A stretch of DNA of 64,000 nt, taken from Thermodesulfobacteriota bacterium. GTDB taxonomy: Bacteria > Desulfobacterota > BSN033 > UBA1163. The notes under the pieces were generated by a model, which worked only from the letters and a program-made list of their open reading frames with translations, had not been told where the DNA came from and made no database searches. A program made the translations under genes and the position numbers. Position 1 is the first letter of the stretch; the number at the start of each line of letters is the position of its first letter. The DNA is taken from NCBI GenBank assembly GCA_026415035.1, contig JAOAHX010000005.1, positions 1 to 64,000 of the forward strand. The letters are read 5' to 3'. Shown here one piece after another: positions 35,002 through 40,844 of this stretch.

Positions 35002-35784
35002 TCAATTTCCATGATCGTTTTTCAGACCATGGTTTACCTGTCTCAGGATCTCGGCCATAATCGGACCTGCCTGGCCATGGATGACGATATCGGCAAGGTG
35101 GTCGTATGGAGTGGGATCCCTGTTAATGATCACCAGCTTCGCCCCATTCCTTTTTGCTAGGAGGGGCAAGGAGGCCGCAGGTTGAACGACGAGGGAAGAA
35201 CCGATGACGATAAAGAGGTCGGCTTCGGAGGAGCGACGATAGGCTTCGCCCATTTCCCTCTCCGGCATGGCCTGGCCGAAGGAGATCGTGGAAGGTTTCA
35301 GAGGGCCTCCGCATTCGTCACAGTAGGGGACTTTTATCCCTCTCCGGATTCGCTCTTGGATCTCGTCGCGGTCGTACCTTTTTTTACAGGTCAAGCATGT
35401 CACGTGCAAGGCGGTTCCGTGCAGCTCGATGATCTTCTCGGGCGAGTTTCCCGCCTTTTGGTGGAGGCCGTCGATATTCTGGGTGATGATGCAATCGAGT
35501 TTCCCCAGCCTCTCCAATTCGGCAATGGCGAGGTGGGCCTGATTGGGTTGGGCCCGTTTCATCGGCTCATACATTTCGGTCGCCATCTGCCAGTATTTTT
35601 CGCGCGAGGCCTCGCTAGAGATGAAATTTTGATAGTAAAAATCCTCGGGATTATAGCGATCCCAGACACCCCCTGGGCTTCTGAAGTCTGGGATGCCGGA
35701 TTCCGTGCTCAGCCCAGCCCCTCCGAAAATGACCACCCTTTTGGAGGAGAGGATCCATCGGGCCACCGTGGCAATCTCTCTCAT
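35002..35784 (-). CDS. cobB: NAD-dependent protein deacylase, Sir2 family
   Basis: 260 residues from the ATG at 35784; the longer frame upstream is low-complexity. The NAD-binding segment GGAGLSTESGIPDFRSPGGVW is present, as are TQNIDGLHQKAG, the catalytic His in ELHGTALHV, two zinc CxxC pairs (CLTC, CDEC) and FGQAMPE and IGSSLVVQPAA. It removes acetyl or other acyl groups from lysines, typically controlling metabolic enzymes such as acetyl-CoA synthetase. It is transcribed divergently from the radical SAM gene. Confidence 0.94.
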   Translation of the reverse strand: MREIATVARWILSSKRVVIFGGAGLSTESGIPDFRSPGGVWDRYNPEDFYYQNFISSEASREKYWQMATEMYEPMKRAQPNQAHLAIAELERLGKLDCIITQNIDGLHQKAGNSPEKIIELHGTALHVTCLTCKKRYDRDEIQERIRRGIKVPYCDECGGPLKPSTISFGQAMPEREMGEAYRRSSEADLFIVIGSSLVVQPAASLPLLAKRNGAKLVIINRDPTPYDHLADIVIHGQAGPIMAEILRQVNHGLKNDHGN

Positions 35785-35927
35785 GTCCGACGCGCTCCGA
35801 CGCCCTCGCCCCAGGGATCCCCCCTTTGAGGGCCCTCCCATGGAGGCGATCGAGGACTAAATATCAGGGTTGGGTTTCTCTGTTCTATATCATAGAACCC
35901 TTCTACCTTGCAAGAAAAAGACGGCTT

Positions 35928-36974
35928 ATGATACAGTTGAAGGGTATGGGTTGCAGGTTGATCCAACAGGGCTATCCTCAAGGGAGCTGTTATGTCGAGG
36001 TCGAAGGAAGGAAGGCGTTGGCCTGTGAGGCGACCCTCCGGTCTTCCGACAAGGGCTGGCTCCGTCTCATCTCCGCGGCCCACCTCTCTCGGCCAGAGAA
36101 TTACCTCTCTCTTTATCAATCGGGGTGCAACTTTTCTTGTAGAAAATGTCACTCCTGGAGCTTTACCAAGAGGGCCAGCGGGGAGTGGTGGGCTCCCGAG
36201 GATGTCCTGAAGGCCTGCAAAGAGTACGAAAAGGGGGTGACATTACGCGAGCCCCGGGAGAGGGCCACCGCCTTTCATGCCCAGGAATCTTGCCGCTGCT
36301 GCGGGGCCTGCGTGATGTATGGGAAACGGTCCTCCCTCTGTCCGAGAGTCATTCAGAAAAAGGATATCGTGTTGAGTCCTCAGGGGTGGGGGCCTGCCCG
36401 GAATATCGTCGCCTTCACCGGAGGCGACCTCACCTGCTGTCCCGAGTTTTATGTCGACTGCGCGCAGTTGATCAAGCAAGAAACCCAACTCTGGGTTCTG
36501 ATCGAAACGAACGGGTATGGGTTGACCCCCCAAAACCTCGATCGGTTGAAGGATGCGGGCGTGGACGCGTTCTGGCTCGACCTGAAGGCTTACGATGGAA
36601 CAGACCACAAGTGGCTGACGGGTTGTTTCAATCGGAATATTTTGAAGCTTCCGGAGGAGATTCTGAAAAGGGGGTTCGTGCTGGAGGTCCTCTCCCTCTA
36701 CATCCCGGGTCTGGTGGAGACCCCCCAGCTGAAGAAGATCGCCCAGTTGCTTTTCGACCTCGATCCTGAAATTCCCTTTACGATCCTGGCCTTCTTTCCG
36801 GAATTCCAGATGAAACGATATAAAAGTCCCAAGGTGACGGAGATGATTTCTGCCTACCAGGAGGTCAAAGAGGTAGGCCTGATGCATGTCAGGCTCGGGA
36901 ACACGGGGATTTTCGCCTCCTCGGAATCGGATTACCATCTCTTGAGAGAAGAAGTGGGCGTTGGAAATTTTTGA
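35928..36974 (+). CDS. Radical SAM enzyme of the PFL-activase/AmmeMemoRadiSam type with an additional cysteine cluster
   Basis: 348 residues from the ATG at 35928; the upstream in-frame extension is not conserved-looking. The SAM/[4Fe-4S] motif is C67-x3-C71-x2-C74 in SGCNFSCRKCHSW. Between it and the FTGGDLTCC strand is an insertion holding Cys122, 124, 125, 128 and 138 (CRCCGAC...C), which could hold a second FeS cluster. The later WVLIETNGYGLT and FWLDLKAYDGTDHKWLTG resemble activase-type radical SAM proteins. It is 34 bases upstream of the receiver-LpxC gene, so co-transcription is likely. Substrate unknown. Confidence 0.82.
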   Translation: MIQLKGMGCRLIQQGYPQGSCYVEVEGRKALACEATLRSSDKGWLRLISAAHLSRPENYLSLYQSGCNFSCRKCHSWSFTKRASGEWWAPEDVLKACKEYEKGVTLREPRERATAFHAQESCRCCGACVMYGKRSSLCPRVIQKKDIVLSPQGWGPARNIVAFTGGDLTCCPEFYVDCAQLIKQETQLWVLIETNGYGLTPQNLDRLKDAGVDAFWLDLKAYDGTDHKWLTGCFNRNILKLPEEILKRGFVLEVLSLYIPGLVETPQLKKIAQLLFDLDPEIPFTILAFFPEFQMKRYKSPKVTEMISAYQEVKEVGLMHVRLGNTGIFASSESDYHLLREEVGVGNF

Positions 36975-37008
36975 GGCCCCAAGGACTCGGACCGCAAGGG
37001 GAGGCTGG

Positions 37009-38328
37009 ATGGAGAAGAGGATTCTCATCGTGGATGACGAAGAGAGGGTGCTGGAGTCGATTCGGGGAGTGCTCGAGGATGAGGGGTTCCGCGTAACGGC
37101 CGTCAAAAGCGGCACGGAGGCCCTTGAGGCATTTCAACGAGAACGCCCGGATGTGACCCTTCTCGATATCTGGATGCCCGGGATGGATGGGATCGAAGTC
37201 TTGAAACGACTGAAGGGGATTGACCCGGACTGTCAGGTCATCATGATCTCTGGCCATGCGACGATCTCCACGGCCATGGCGGCCGTCAAGCAAGGGGCCT
37301 TGGACTTTATCGAAAAGCCCATCTCCCTCGACGCCCTCCTCAAATCGGTCCGGGTGGCCCTTGATCGGCCTGTCGAAGGGATGGAAGATCCCCAGGCCCC
37401 GGCCCCGGTCACGGACAGGGAAGGGGCCCCTCCTGTTTCTCTCGAAACCCAAAGCCCTCTCCCTCCAAAGGGGCGGAAACGGCCCTCGACCCCTCTGGCC
37501 CTCCAGAAGACGATTCAGAAGAGCGTGGTCCTCTATGGACGAGGACTCCACTCCGGCATGAAGACCGGCCTTCTCCTCCAGCCCCTCCCTCCTCACAGCG
37601 GCATCCTCTTCGGCAATGTCTCCAACGAGGAGGTGGTCCCGGCCCACCTCGATTATGTCCAGACGACGGAGTACGCCACCTCCCTCAAAAAGGGGATGGC
37701 CATCGCCAAGACGGTCGAACATCTGCTGGCGGTCCTCCATGCCTACGGGATCACCAATCTGATGGTGAAGATGATCGAGGAGATCCCCATCATGGATGGT
37801 TCGGCCATAGAGTTCTGCAAGATGATCGAGGAGGCGGGGATCGAGGAGCAGGATGAGAGGACGGATGAGATCGTGATCGACCGACGGTACGAAGTGATCC
37901 ACAAGCACAAATCCCTTGTGATCGAGCCTGCAGAGACTCTCACCATCCACTATTTTTTGGATTACCCCTATCCGATTGGCCCCCAGAGCCTCGAGTTCGT
38001 CCTGGACAGTGCGGTTAGTTTTAAGGAGCAGATTGCCCCGGCTCGGACCTTTGGGTTTTTGAAGGATATCGAGATGCTGGAGCGGATGGGCCTGGCTGGC
38101 GGAGGACGCCTCCACAATTTTATCCTCGTCGATGACGAGAAGGTGGTCAATACGGAATTGAGGTTTCCTGACGAGTTCGTCAGACACAAGATTCTCGATT
38201 TGATCGGCGACCTCTACCTGCTCAATCGGCCGATTCGTGGAAGGGTGACGGCACGGTTTACGGGCCATACCGAAAATATTGCCATGATGCGAAAAATCCA
38301 AGAGGGGCTCCGTTTGAAAGGGCCCTGA
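37009..38328 (+). CDS. lpxC: Receiver-LpxC fusion: response regulator domain joined to UDP-3-O-acyl-GlcNAc deacetylase
   Basis: 439 residues from the ATG at 37009. Residues 1-122 form an intact receiver: acidic pair Asp9-Asp10, phosphoacceptor Asp53 (LLDIWMPGMDG), Ser81 (ISGHAT) and Lys103 (EKP), most like NtrC/NtrX-type receivers. A Pro-rich linker (about 123-165) leads to a full LpxC domain (about 166-439): GRGLHSG, TVEHL (Glu237, His238), EEIPIMDGSAIEF, RTFGF, HKILD (His393, Asp397) and GHTEN (His420). All zinc ligands are kept. LpxC commits UDP-acyl-GlcNAc to lipid A synthesis; in E. coli it is controlled by FtsH proteolysis. Here phosphorylation of the receiver could set activity or stability, which is inference. 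It lies between a radical SAM gene and an HTH gene. Confidence 0.95.
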   Translation: MEKRILIVDDEERVLESIRGVLEDEGFRVTAVKSGTEALEAFQRERPDVTLLDIWMPGMDGIEVLKRLKGIDPDCQVIMISGHATISTAMAAVKQGALDFIEKPISLDALLKSVRVALDRPVEGMEDPQAPAPVTDREGAPPVSLETQSPLPPKGRKRPSTPLALQKTIQKSVVLYGRGLHSGMKTGLLLQPLPPHSGILFGNVSNEEVVPAHLDYVQTTEYATSLKKGMAIAKTVEHLLAVLHAYGITNLMVKMIEEIPIMDGSAIEFCKMIEEAGIEEQDERTDEIVIDRRYEVIHKHKSLVIEPAETLTIHYFLDYPYPIGPQSLEFVLDSAVSFKEQIAPARTFGFLKDIEMLERMGLAGGGRLHNFILVDDEKVVNTELRFPDEFVRHKILDLIGDLYLLNRPIRGRVTARFTGHTENIAMMRKIQEGLRLKGP

Positions 38329-38346
38329 TTGAAAAGGGGGGAAAAG

Positions 38347-38751
38347 ATGGGACGGGAGGAAAGGCCCGGGGTGAAGGAATTCTTGAACTTATTGGCAGAC
38401 CTCCTCGCCGAAAAGTATTTTGAGCGGTTGGATGACCGGATGAAGAAGATCCCGGAACTCCGAAGGTTGATCACGGCCAAAGAGGCCAGCCAGTACCTCA
38501 GCCTTTCCACGGATACGATTTATCGCCTGGCCTCTGCGAAAAAACTCCCCTACCTCAAGATCGGGGACCGGGTGCTGTTTGATCTCAAGGCCCTTGACCG
38601 CTGGATTGAGAAGCATCTCATCCGGGAGAAAGATTATAAAAAGGAAGAGCTCAGGGCCGGTGCGGAACCTCCCAACGAGTTGAGGCCCTCCAGGGAGTCC
38701 GATCTCCTCAACCTTCTTAAAAAGAAGGGGAGGGAGCCCAACCCCCTTTAA
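38347..38751 (+). CDS. Excisionase/MerR-type helix-turn-helix DNA-binding protein
   Basis: 134 residues from the ATG at 38347, behind AGGGGGGAAAAG. After an N-terminal helical stretch (FLNLLADLLAEKYFERLDDRMKKIPELRR), the domain RLITAKEASQYLSLSTDTIYRLASAKKLPYLKIGDRVLFDLKALDRWIEKHL is the HTH_17/excisionase-family fold. The tail is charged and disordered. It begins 18 bases after the receiver-LpxC stop, so it is probably in that operon. It could regulate these genes or be a leftover of a mobile element; no integrase is visible nearby. Confidence 0.8.
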   Translation: MGREERPGVKEFLNLLADLLAEKYFERLDDRMKKIPELRRLITAKEASQYLSLSTDTIYRLASAKKLPYLKIGDRVLFDLKALDRWIEKHLIREKDYKKEELRAGAEPPNELRPSRESDLLNLLKKKGREPNPL

Positions 38752-39424: not shown

Positions 39425-40210
39425 TCAACCCTTTACCGTGATTTCATCTTCGAGATGGGGGCTTAGGCGTTTCAGGGCCTGCCTTCTCTGCCAGGCCCGA
39501 ATCATCTGAACCGGTCCTGAGAAGACGTAACCGAGGATGAAAGCGAAAAGGACGATCACGGGTTCCATCACGATGACAATCATCGAAAGGACGATGAAGA
39601 TGAACAGGCTAAAGGGCTTCCGGCGGGCCAGGTCGAATTCCTTGAAGCTGGCATAGCGGATGTTAGACACCATGAGGAAGGCCAAGACGTAGATCATGAT
39701 GAGGATAACGATATCTTTCACCCACCCGGTCTCGATCAGTCGAAGATAGAGCAGGATCGTCAGGGCGATCATCGCGGCGGCCGCCGGGATGGGAAGGCCT
39801 TTGAAATATTTGGTCTCCCCCGAAGCGGACATGACGTTGAACCGGGCCAACCGGAGGGCACCGCAGACCACGAAGAGAAAGGCGGCCAACCATCCAAACC
39901 GACCGTAGGGACGCAAGGCCCAACTGAAGGCCAGCAGTGCCGGGGCCACGCCAAAGGAGATCACATCGGCGAGGGAGTCGTATTGAACGCCGAATTTGGT
40001 GGTGGCCCCTGAAAGCCGGGCCACCTTTCCATCAAGGGTGTCAAAGACCGCCGCAAGGAGGATGGCCACCGCGGCGTCGAAAAATCTTTCTTGAAAGACG
40101 GAGATCATCGCCCAGAACCCGCAAAAGAGGTTCCCCGTAGTAAAGAGGTTGGGAAGGATATAGATCCCCTTGCGGACCTTAAGAGGCGTTCTCCTTCTGC
40201 GCGTGGACAT
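39425..40210 (-). CDS. pssA: CDP-diacylglycerol:serine O-phosphatidyltransferase
   Basis: 261 residues with several membrane helices. The CDP-alcohol phosphotransferase signature is complete: DTLDGKVARLSGATTKFGVQYDSLAD, fitting DGxxARxxxxxxxxGxxxDxxxD. It makes phosphatidylserine, the substrate for the neighbouring psd product. The start overlaps the end of psd by 32 bases, so translation is probably coupled. It is the last gene of the ilvB-ilvN-ilvC-psd-pssA series. Confidence 0.95.
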   Translation of the reverse strand: MSTRRRRTPLKVRKGIYILPNLFTTGNLFCGFWAMISVFQERFFDAAVAILLAAVFDTLDGKVARLSGATTKFGVQYDSLADVISFGVAPALLAFSWALRPYGRFGWLAAFLFVVCGALRLARFNVMSASGETKYFKGLPIPAAAAMIALTILLYLRLIETGWVKDIVILIMIYVLAFLMVSNIRYASFKEFDLARRKPFSLFIFIVLSMIVIVMEPVIVLFAFILGYVFSGPVQMIRAWQRRQALKRLSPHLEDEITVKG

Positions 40211-40844
40211 AGCCGATGATGGACTCCCCTCCCTTGAGATGCTGACCCACCCGGACGATGGGCTGAATCGTTAGAGGCAGAAACAGGTCCACCCTTGACC
40301 CAAACCGAATCATACCAAATATCTCTCCCTGATTCAAGTGATCGCCAGGCTTCGCATAACAGACGATCCTTCGGGCGATGAACCCAGCGATTTGGACGAG
40401 CAAGACCCTGAAGCGGCCTTCGGCCTCGATCATCAAGGCATTCCGTTCATTGAATATGGAGGCCTTGCTCCGATTTGCGGCGGAGAACTTTCCGGGCTGA
40501 TAGGCGACCTGGACCACCTTCCCCGAAATCGGGGCCCGGTTCAGATGGACGTCGAAGGGCGACATAAAAATGGAGATCTTCAAGGCTTTCTCTTTAAGAA
40601 AACGGTCTTCATTGCACGCTCCCACCTCCACCACCTTTCCGTCGGCAGGTGAGAGGACAATATTCTTGAGGTTGGGGATCTTCCGCTTCGGGTTTCGGAA
40701 GAAATAGGCGATGAAGAGGGTGACCAAGAGGCCGAGAAGACCCCCTCCCGTCCACCCCAGTCCTAAGAGGAGGAGGGTCAAAAGGAGAGAAGGGATCAGG
40801 AATGGCAGCCCTTCGCGGGCAATGGGCCAACGGTTGGAAACCAT
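40179..40844 (-). CDS. psd: Phosphatidylserine decarboxylase proenzyme
   Basis: 221 residues, the short form of the family. It has an N-terminal hydrophobic pair of helices (LLLTLLLLGLGWTGGGLLGLLVTLFIAYFF), then LSPADGKVVEVG and FMSPFDVHLNRAPISGKV. Near the C-terminus RFGSRVDLF contains the Gly-Ser site at which the proenzyme cleaves itself to make the pyruvoyl group. It converts phosphatidylserine to phosphatidylethanolamine in the inner membrane. It begins directly after the ilvC stop with no gap. Confidence 0.96.
   Translation of the reverse strand: MVSNRWPIAREGLPFLIPSLLLTLLLLGLGWTGGGLLGLLVTLFIAYFFRNPKRKIPNLKNIVLSPADGKVVEVGACNEDRFLKEKALKISIFMSPFDVHLNRAPISGKVVQVAYQPGKFSAANRSKASIFNERNALMIEAEGRFRVLLVQIAGFIARRIVCYAKPGDHLNQGEIFGMIRFGSRVDLFLPLTIQPIVRVGQHLKGGESIIGYVHAQKENAS

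Follow-up and report, generated by a model that had tools for sequence, protein, structure and literature searches.

Response regulators whose output is an enzyme are a known sort of protein, exemplified by the CheB, PP2C and GGDEF/EAL types, and the protein described here resembles them in that a receiver is fused to an enzyme. Those enzymes make or erase signals, however, whereas LpxC is a core biosynthetic enzyme; the fusion would thus be an enzyme-output response regulator of a known sort with a biosynthetic enzyme as its output. Two-component control of lpxC has been described at the level of transcription. Loss of NtrYX in R. sphaeroides causes an 8.8-fold rise in lpxC mRNA and a ~2-fold rise in LPS (PMC7240162; PMC12444477), which suggests that NtrYX restrains LpxC; NtrX acts indirectly there, lpxC having no NtrX site upstream of it (PMC7240162). 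Overall, NtrYX lowers lpxC transcription in two alphaproteobacteria, R. sphaeroides and C. crescentus (PMC12444477). In Desulfovibrio vulgaris, lpxC is the single mapped target of the sigma54-dependent response regulator DVU2934, and the operon orthologous to that of DVU2934 in Syntrophobacter fumaroxidans has lpxC immediately upstream (PMC3333781). DVU2934 is likened to the fusion through its lpxC target and gene position, not as an NtrX, and differs in being a separate transcription factor. Direct control of LpxC activity, by LapB and MurA, is an emerging theme (PMC13333357). The preliminary description of our locus knew of no characterised receiver-LpxC fusion, and in the open-licence papers we likewise found no description of a receiver-LpxC or NtrX-LpxC protein.

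We analysed a 64,000-nucleotide stretch of a Thermodesulfobacteriota genome (the window), in which a single stop-free frame at 37009-38328 (+) translates into a 439-aa protein with a receiver (residues 5-114), a linker (~122-160) and LpxC (166-431), in that order. The features of the locus are as follows.

35826..36974, + strand: radical-SAM gene, upstream, conserved neighbour of the family (Pfam Radical_SAM, synteny; operon partner by position only)
36995..37008, + strand: probable ribosome-binding region before ATG 37009 (purine-rich AAGGGGAGGCTGG, read directly)
37009..37374, + strand: NtrX-type receiver domain, residues 1-122 (Pfam, receiver tree, invariant pocket; Asp53 is the predicted phosphoacceptor)
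37375..37500, + strand: Pro-rich linker, residues 123-164 (AlphaFold2 pLDDT, entropy)
37501..38325, + strand: LpxC deacetylase domain, residues 165-439 (Pfam, TIGR00325, single copy, fold)
38347..38751, + strand: small HTH_17/excisionase-like gene, downstream, conserved neighbour of the family (Pfam HTH_17, synteny; ATG 38347 after GGGGGGAAAAG)

The ATG at 37009 is preceded by GGGGAGG, and an alternative, longer reading of the gene would begin at a TTG at 36961. Separate translation of a whole LpxC from the fusion gene is unlikely because no ATG, GTG or TTG start occurs between codons 126 and 172, and an internal start yielding free LpxC was rejected for want of a plausible start codon. The only long open frame on the opposite strand of 37009-38328 is a mirror frame without a recognised product. 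AlphaFold2 models the receiver and LpxC domains confidently (mean pLDDT 85) and gives residues 122-160 values <50, so that these are predicted to form a disordered linker; the pTM of 0.78 was not counted as evidence on interdomain docking. Among the surrounding genes, the radical SAM neighbour is more conserved (~80-85%) than REC-LpxC itself. PssA- and Psd-like genes (phospholipid synthesis) lie at 39425-40844 (-), ~0.7 kb past the fusion cluster, a proximity that may mean nothing since no PssA match was found in the fetched flanks of relatives.

The preliminary description had read the receiver and LpxC as one continuous frame with a Pro-rich linker rather than a frameshift artefact, had expected similar fusions elsewhere, and had proposed a search across genomes for the architecture. 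That search recovered 74 full-length fusions sharing one frame, from independent assemblies. A receiver stands ahead of LpxC in 68 of the 297 genomes sampled from the phylum, in 4 of 149 sampled Acidobacteriota genomes, and in one example each from contigs named Nitrospinae, Thermodesulfovibrionia, Schekmanbacteria and Tectomicrobia; these are counts of genomes and not of independent events, because the 68 include close relatives. The order SIR2 (-), radical SAM (+), REC-LpxC (+), HTH_17 excisionase-like gene (+), which occupies 35002-38751 of the window, recurs in about a dozen relatives. In an LpxC tree, a single branch (100/100) separates all fused LpxC from every standalone LpxC sampled, which fits one fused lineage. 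That two genes were merged by faulty assembly or annotation, the error that the preliminary description had warned of, is accordingly a negligible prospect: we found nothing in its support, and against it stand the single open frame, its recurrence in 74 proteins of independent genomes, the conserved gene order and the 100/100 branch.

We then considered what the LpxC part would do in the cell. Pfam LpxC matches residues 166-431 with 280 bits, covering profile positions 1-267 of 268, and TIGR00325 matches the domain above its cut-off. In an alignment of 66 REC-LpxC proteins E237, H238, H393, K394, D397, D401 and H420 are invariant and T347 nearly so; by alignment to P. aeruginosa LpxC, on which the matching of residues to known sites rests, these include the zinc ligands H238, H393 and D397 and the catalytic residues E237, H420, K394 and D401, as the preliminary description had noted for the ligands and the catalytic Glu/His. 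The domain also has the fold of P. aeruginosa LpxC, at 38% identity. The fusion thus resembles an ordinary LpxC (PF03331, TIGR00325) in its whole domain, zinc ligands, catalytic residues and fold, and differs from it in the added N-terminal receiver and linker and in its separate lineage. No second, ordinary LpxC was found in a search of the source genome (97% complete), in which lpxA and lpxB are both present, and therefore the fusion must perform the committed step of lipid A synthesis. Together these features imply deacetylase activity on UDP-3-O-acyl-GlcNAc. The fusion is likewise the only LpxC in 65 of the 68 fusion genomes, the other three (G047, G208, G252) carrying a second, ordinary LpxC. 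As a separate observation, G208 (L130) and G252 (L129) encode a divergent REC-LpxC (~40% identity) alongside an ordinary lpxC-ntrY cluster, and G285 (L164/L165) encodes REC-LpxC together with a separate NtrY-NtrX pair; these double sets may reflect a paralog, transfer or contamination.

The end of the protein bears on how LpxC output could be controlled. The chain stops 8 residues past the LpxC domain with no C-terminal extension, as in fused LpxC generally, whereas many standalone LpxC of relatives carry an extension (median +8, often +28 residues), and the fusion lacks a C-terminal degron tail of the kind found in FtsH-controlled LpxC; an FtsH degron at the C terminus is improbable in a chain that stops at the domain boundary. 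Proteolysis is the classical control of LpxC, receivers can serve as protease adaptors (RssB, CpdR), and without the extension another protease handle might be needed, so that phosphorylation of the receiver could act as a conditional degron, or as an anti-degron, towards an ATP-dependent protease, altering the stability of LpxC and not its catalysis. We hold this to be unlikely: no degron or adaptor was identified, and LpxC tails without a degron occur in unfused LpxC too (PMC12444477).

The receiver (Pfam Response_reg, residues 5-114, 115 bits) has the fold, acidic pair, phosphoacceptor Asp, Thr/Ser and Lys by which a two-component response regulator is recognised in sequence. D9, D10, D53, S81 and K103, which the preliminary description had found intact, are invariant among the 66 aligned REC-LpxC proteins, and all five are kept in 74/74 full-length REC-LpxC; the one exception to a kept pocket, L013, has a broken N-terminus and lies outside these 74. 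Per-region entropy is 1.42 bits in the receiver and 1.34 bits in LpxC versus 3.14 bits in the linker, whose length (21-62) and sequence both vary among fusions. The receiver is, by this comparison, under as much constraint as LpxC while the linker drifts, and this conservation supports phosphorylation as its input.

The ancestry of the receiver points to NtrX, the nearest curated family. In a receiver tree, fused receivers and separate NtrX receivers form a group that excludes 12 NtrC-family paralogs (11 taken from the source genome itself), with 97/97 support; at 116 columns the tree is too short to tell one fusion event from several. The receiver has kept the NtrX signature SLxGxLxDE in helix 1, the helix that contacts the kinase; the paralogs of the source genome lack this signature. 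By tree and signature, we conclude, the receiver is NtrX-derived. Chance joining of a random paralogous receiver to LpxC was ruled out by this tree together with the linkage of ntrY. The fusion resembles NtrX in its receiver, in the retained partner kinase NtrY and in the full NtrX-LpxC proteins of relatives (see below). Unlike NtrX, it has LpxC as its output and no AAA+ sigma54 domain (GAFTGA) or Fis-type helix-turn-helix; for lack of these two defining parts the window protein does not qualify as an NtrX.

To place the receiver beside its presumptive kinase, we compared fusion genomes with genomes encoding an ordinary LpxC. NtrY lies ~0.2-1.5 kb downstream of lpxC in 38/38 standalone-lpxC loci fetched, which were picked by similarity to the window protein and not randomly; in those read in detail the order is lpxC - DUF4390 - ntrY - ntrX, and, judging by coordinates, some ten of 16 ordinary-lpxC genomes have lpxC and ntrX separated by no more than ~4 kb. 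NtrYX and lpxC would thus be old neighbours, and we infer that the fusion is a join of neighbours. The DUF4390 gene between lpxC and ntrY (L108:7007-7564 and equivalents) is a candidate part of an NtrY/LpxC system. A separate NtrX was present in 3/50 fusion genomes versus 16/16 ordinary-lpxC genomes (Fisher p ~1e-12, uncorrected for kinship); it is gone from the other 47, and G285, G208 and G252 keep both NtrX and the fusion. Absence of NtrX is established by tree for the source genome only, because elsewhere the bit-score level overlaps true NtrX of some Desulfobacteraceae; the four best NtrX candidates of the source genome all fall among NtrC-family paralogs.

Conversely, NtrY is retained in 66 of the 68 fusion genomes, being co-directional with the fusion and ending immediately ahead of it in 22 and lying elsewhere in 44; it was not found in two, one of these 68% complete. 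In families f56 and f26 the orthology is less sure because the best NtrY-like kinase is only 30-33% identical to the query. No NtrY lies beside the fusion gene within the window. The source genome encodes one NtrY of 760 residues, on another contig (C2:153649-155922), with NtrY_N, HAMP, PAS, HisKA and HATPase domains and a score of 658 bits (next kinase, 120). This NtrY is an orphan with no adjoining response regulator gene, and it supplies a candidate for the cognate histidine kinase that the preliminary description had suggested looking for: an orphan NtrY and an NtrX-type receiver on LpxC are most likely mutual partners. Since NtrY is a membrane protein (NtrY_N, HAMP), the receiver might alternatively serve to dock LpxC at the membrane beside this kinase, phosphorylation being secondary. 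A flexible linker would suit such tethering, and Ght is proposed to recruit LpxC to the membrane in Neisseria (PMC12444477). Docking would not by itself hold Asp9/Asp10/Asp53/Ser81/Lys103 invariant across 74 proteins, though, and we regard it as distinctly improbable.

Relatives also encode 17 proteins, most of ~700-770 residues, that comprise REC, AAA+, a helix-turn-helix-like region and LpxC. Their receivers keep every phosphorylation residue (16/16 readable), whereas all 17 have lost GAFTGA and the arginine-finger region and most have also lost the Walker B acid pair. GAFTGA is the motif by which NtrC-type regulators grip sigma54. With these losses and a Pfam sigma54 score of 48-160 bits, versus 250 bits in separate NtrX, the NtrX-LpxC proteins can hardly be sigma54 activators, and they look like intermediates on the way from a transcription factor to an enzyme regulator; in REC-LpxC the AAA+ part is entirely absent. 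A single clade was not rejected for REC-LpxC (p-AU 0.20) or for NtrX-LpxC (p-AU 0.69). In several Desulfobacteraceae loci (L080-L106) the separate NtrX encoded downstream of lpxC-ntrY has itself lost GAFTGA (GAFEEA, GAFDQA) while Walker A/B remain, and that of L082 and L085 has no Pfam-detectable helix-turn-helix; such NtrX may act in trans on LpxC or another protein and not on promoters. A receiver retained on LpxC as a vestige, for folding or solubility and with no signalling role, could have arisen incidentally when neighbouring genes lost a stop, and the unlinked NtrY of the source genome would fit it. This is very improbable, however, because the pocket is fully conserved and the receiver constrained like LpxC while the linker and AAA+ part decay, and because NtrY is kept in nearly all fusion genomes.

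We propose that the fusion is a response regulator with LpxC as its output domain. NtrX would formerly have been a separate transcription regulator, paired with NtrY and encoded beside lpxC; the membrane histidine kinase NtrY would now phosphorylate the NtrX-derived receiver at Asp53, and in that state the receiver would alter the amount of UDP-3-O-acyl-GlcNAc deacetylated by the attached LpxC. NtrY as the kinase, phosphorylation as the input and an effect on LpxC, phosphotransfer included, are what we infer from these comparisons, and that NtrY phosphorylates the fused receiver and so sets LpxC output seems to us reasonably probable. A phosphorelay input to LpxC, which the preliminary description had put forward as a control logic unlike proteolysis, is partly supported, and the reading is strengthened because the receiver is NtrX-derived, NtrY was kept while NtrX was lost, and the pocket is fully constrained. 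Counted against it are the unlinked ntrY of the source genome and of two thirds of the fusion genomes, the disordered, variable linker, which offers no obvious rigid allosteric coupling, the indirect effect of NtrX on R. sphaeroides lpxC (PMC7240162), the low identity of the f56 and f26 kinases, and the NtrX kept beside the fusion in three genomes.

As to what phosphorylation would change, we favour a change in LpxC activity above one in stability or membrane recruitment, since a covalently attached module requires no added partner and LpxC activity is tunable by LapB and MurA; stability ranks second because the fused LpxC ends without a tail. By analogy with alphaproteobacterial NtrYX, which keeps lpxC low, phosphorylation or engagement by NtrY may lower LpxC output. 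The kinase/receiver family and the enzyme affected are the same in both cases; alphaproteobacterial NtrYX affects lpxC transcription, whereas in the fusion the enzyme itself contains the receiver.

Beyond the preliminary description, our analysis adds the NtrYX connection, the NtrX-LpxC intermediates and the fusion as the sole LpxC. We give somewhat better than even odds to the joint claim that the NtrY-NtrX transcription pathway has been rewired into one step, in which a sensor kinase would phosphorylate the essential, committed enzyme of lipid A synthesis, and that this rewiring, with decaying intermediates, spans Desulfobacterota-type lineages, some Acidobacteriota and contigs named Nitrospinota, Nitrospirota, Schekmanbacteria and Tectomicrobia. 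Control of LpxC at the level of activity rather than amount is only now emerging (PMC13333357), and the covalent receiver offers a clean handle on it, a single Asp-to-Ala change separating signal from enzyme. The fusion would also lend independent genomic support to regarding NtrYX, which takes its name from nitrogen, as an envelope and lipopolysaccharide system in many bacteria.
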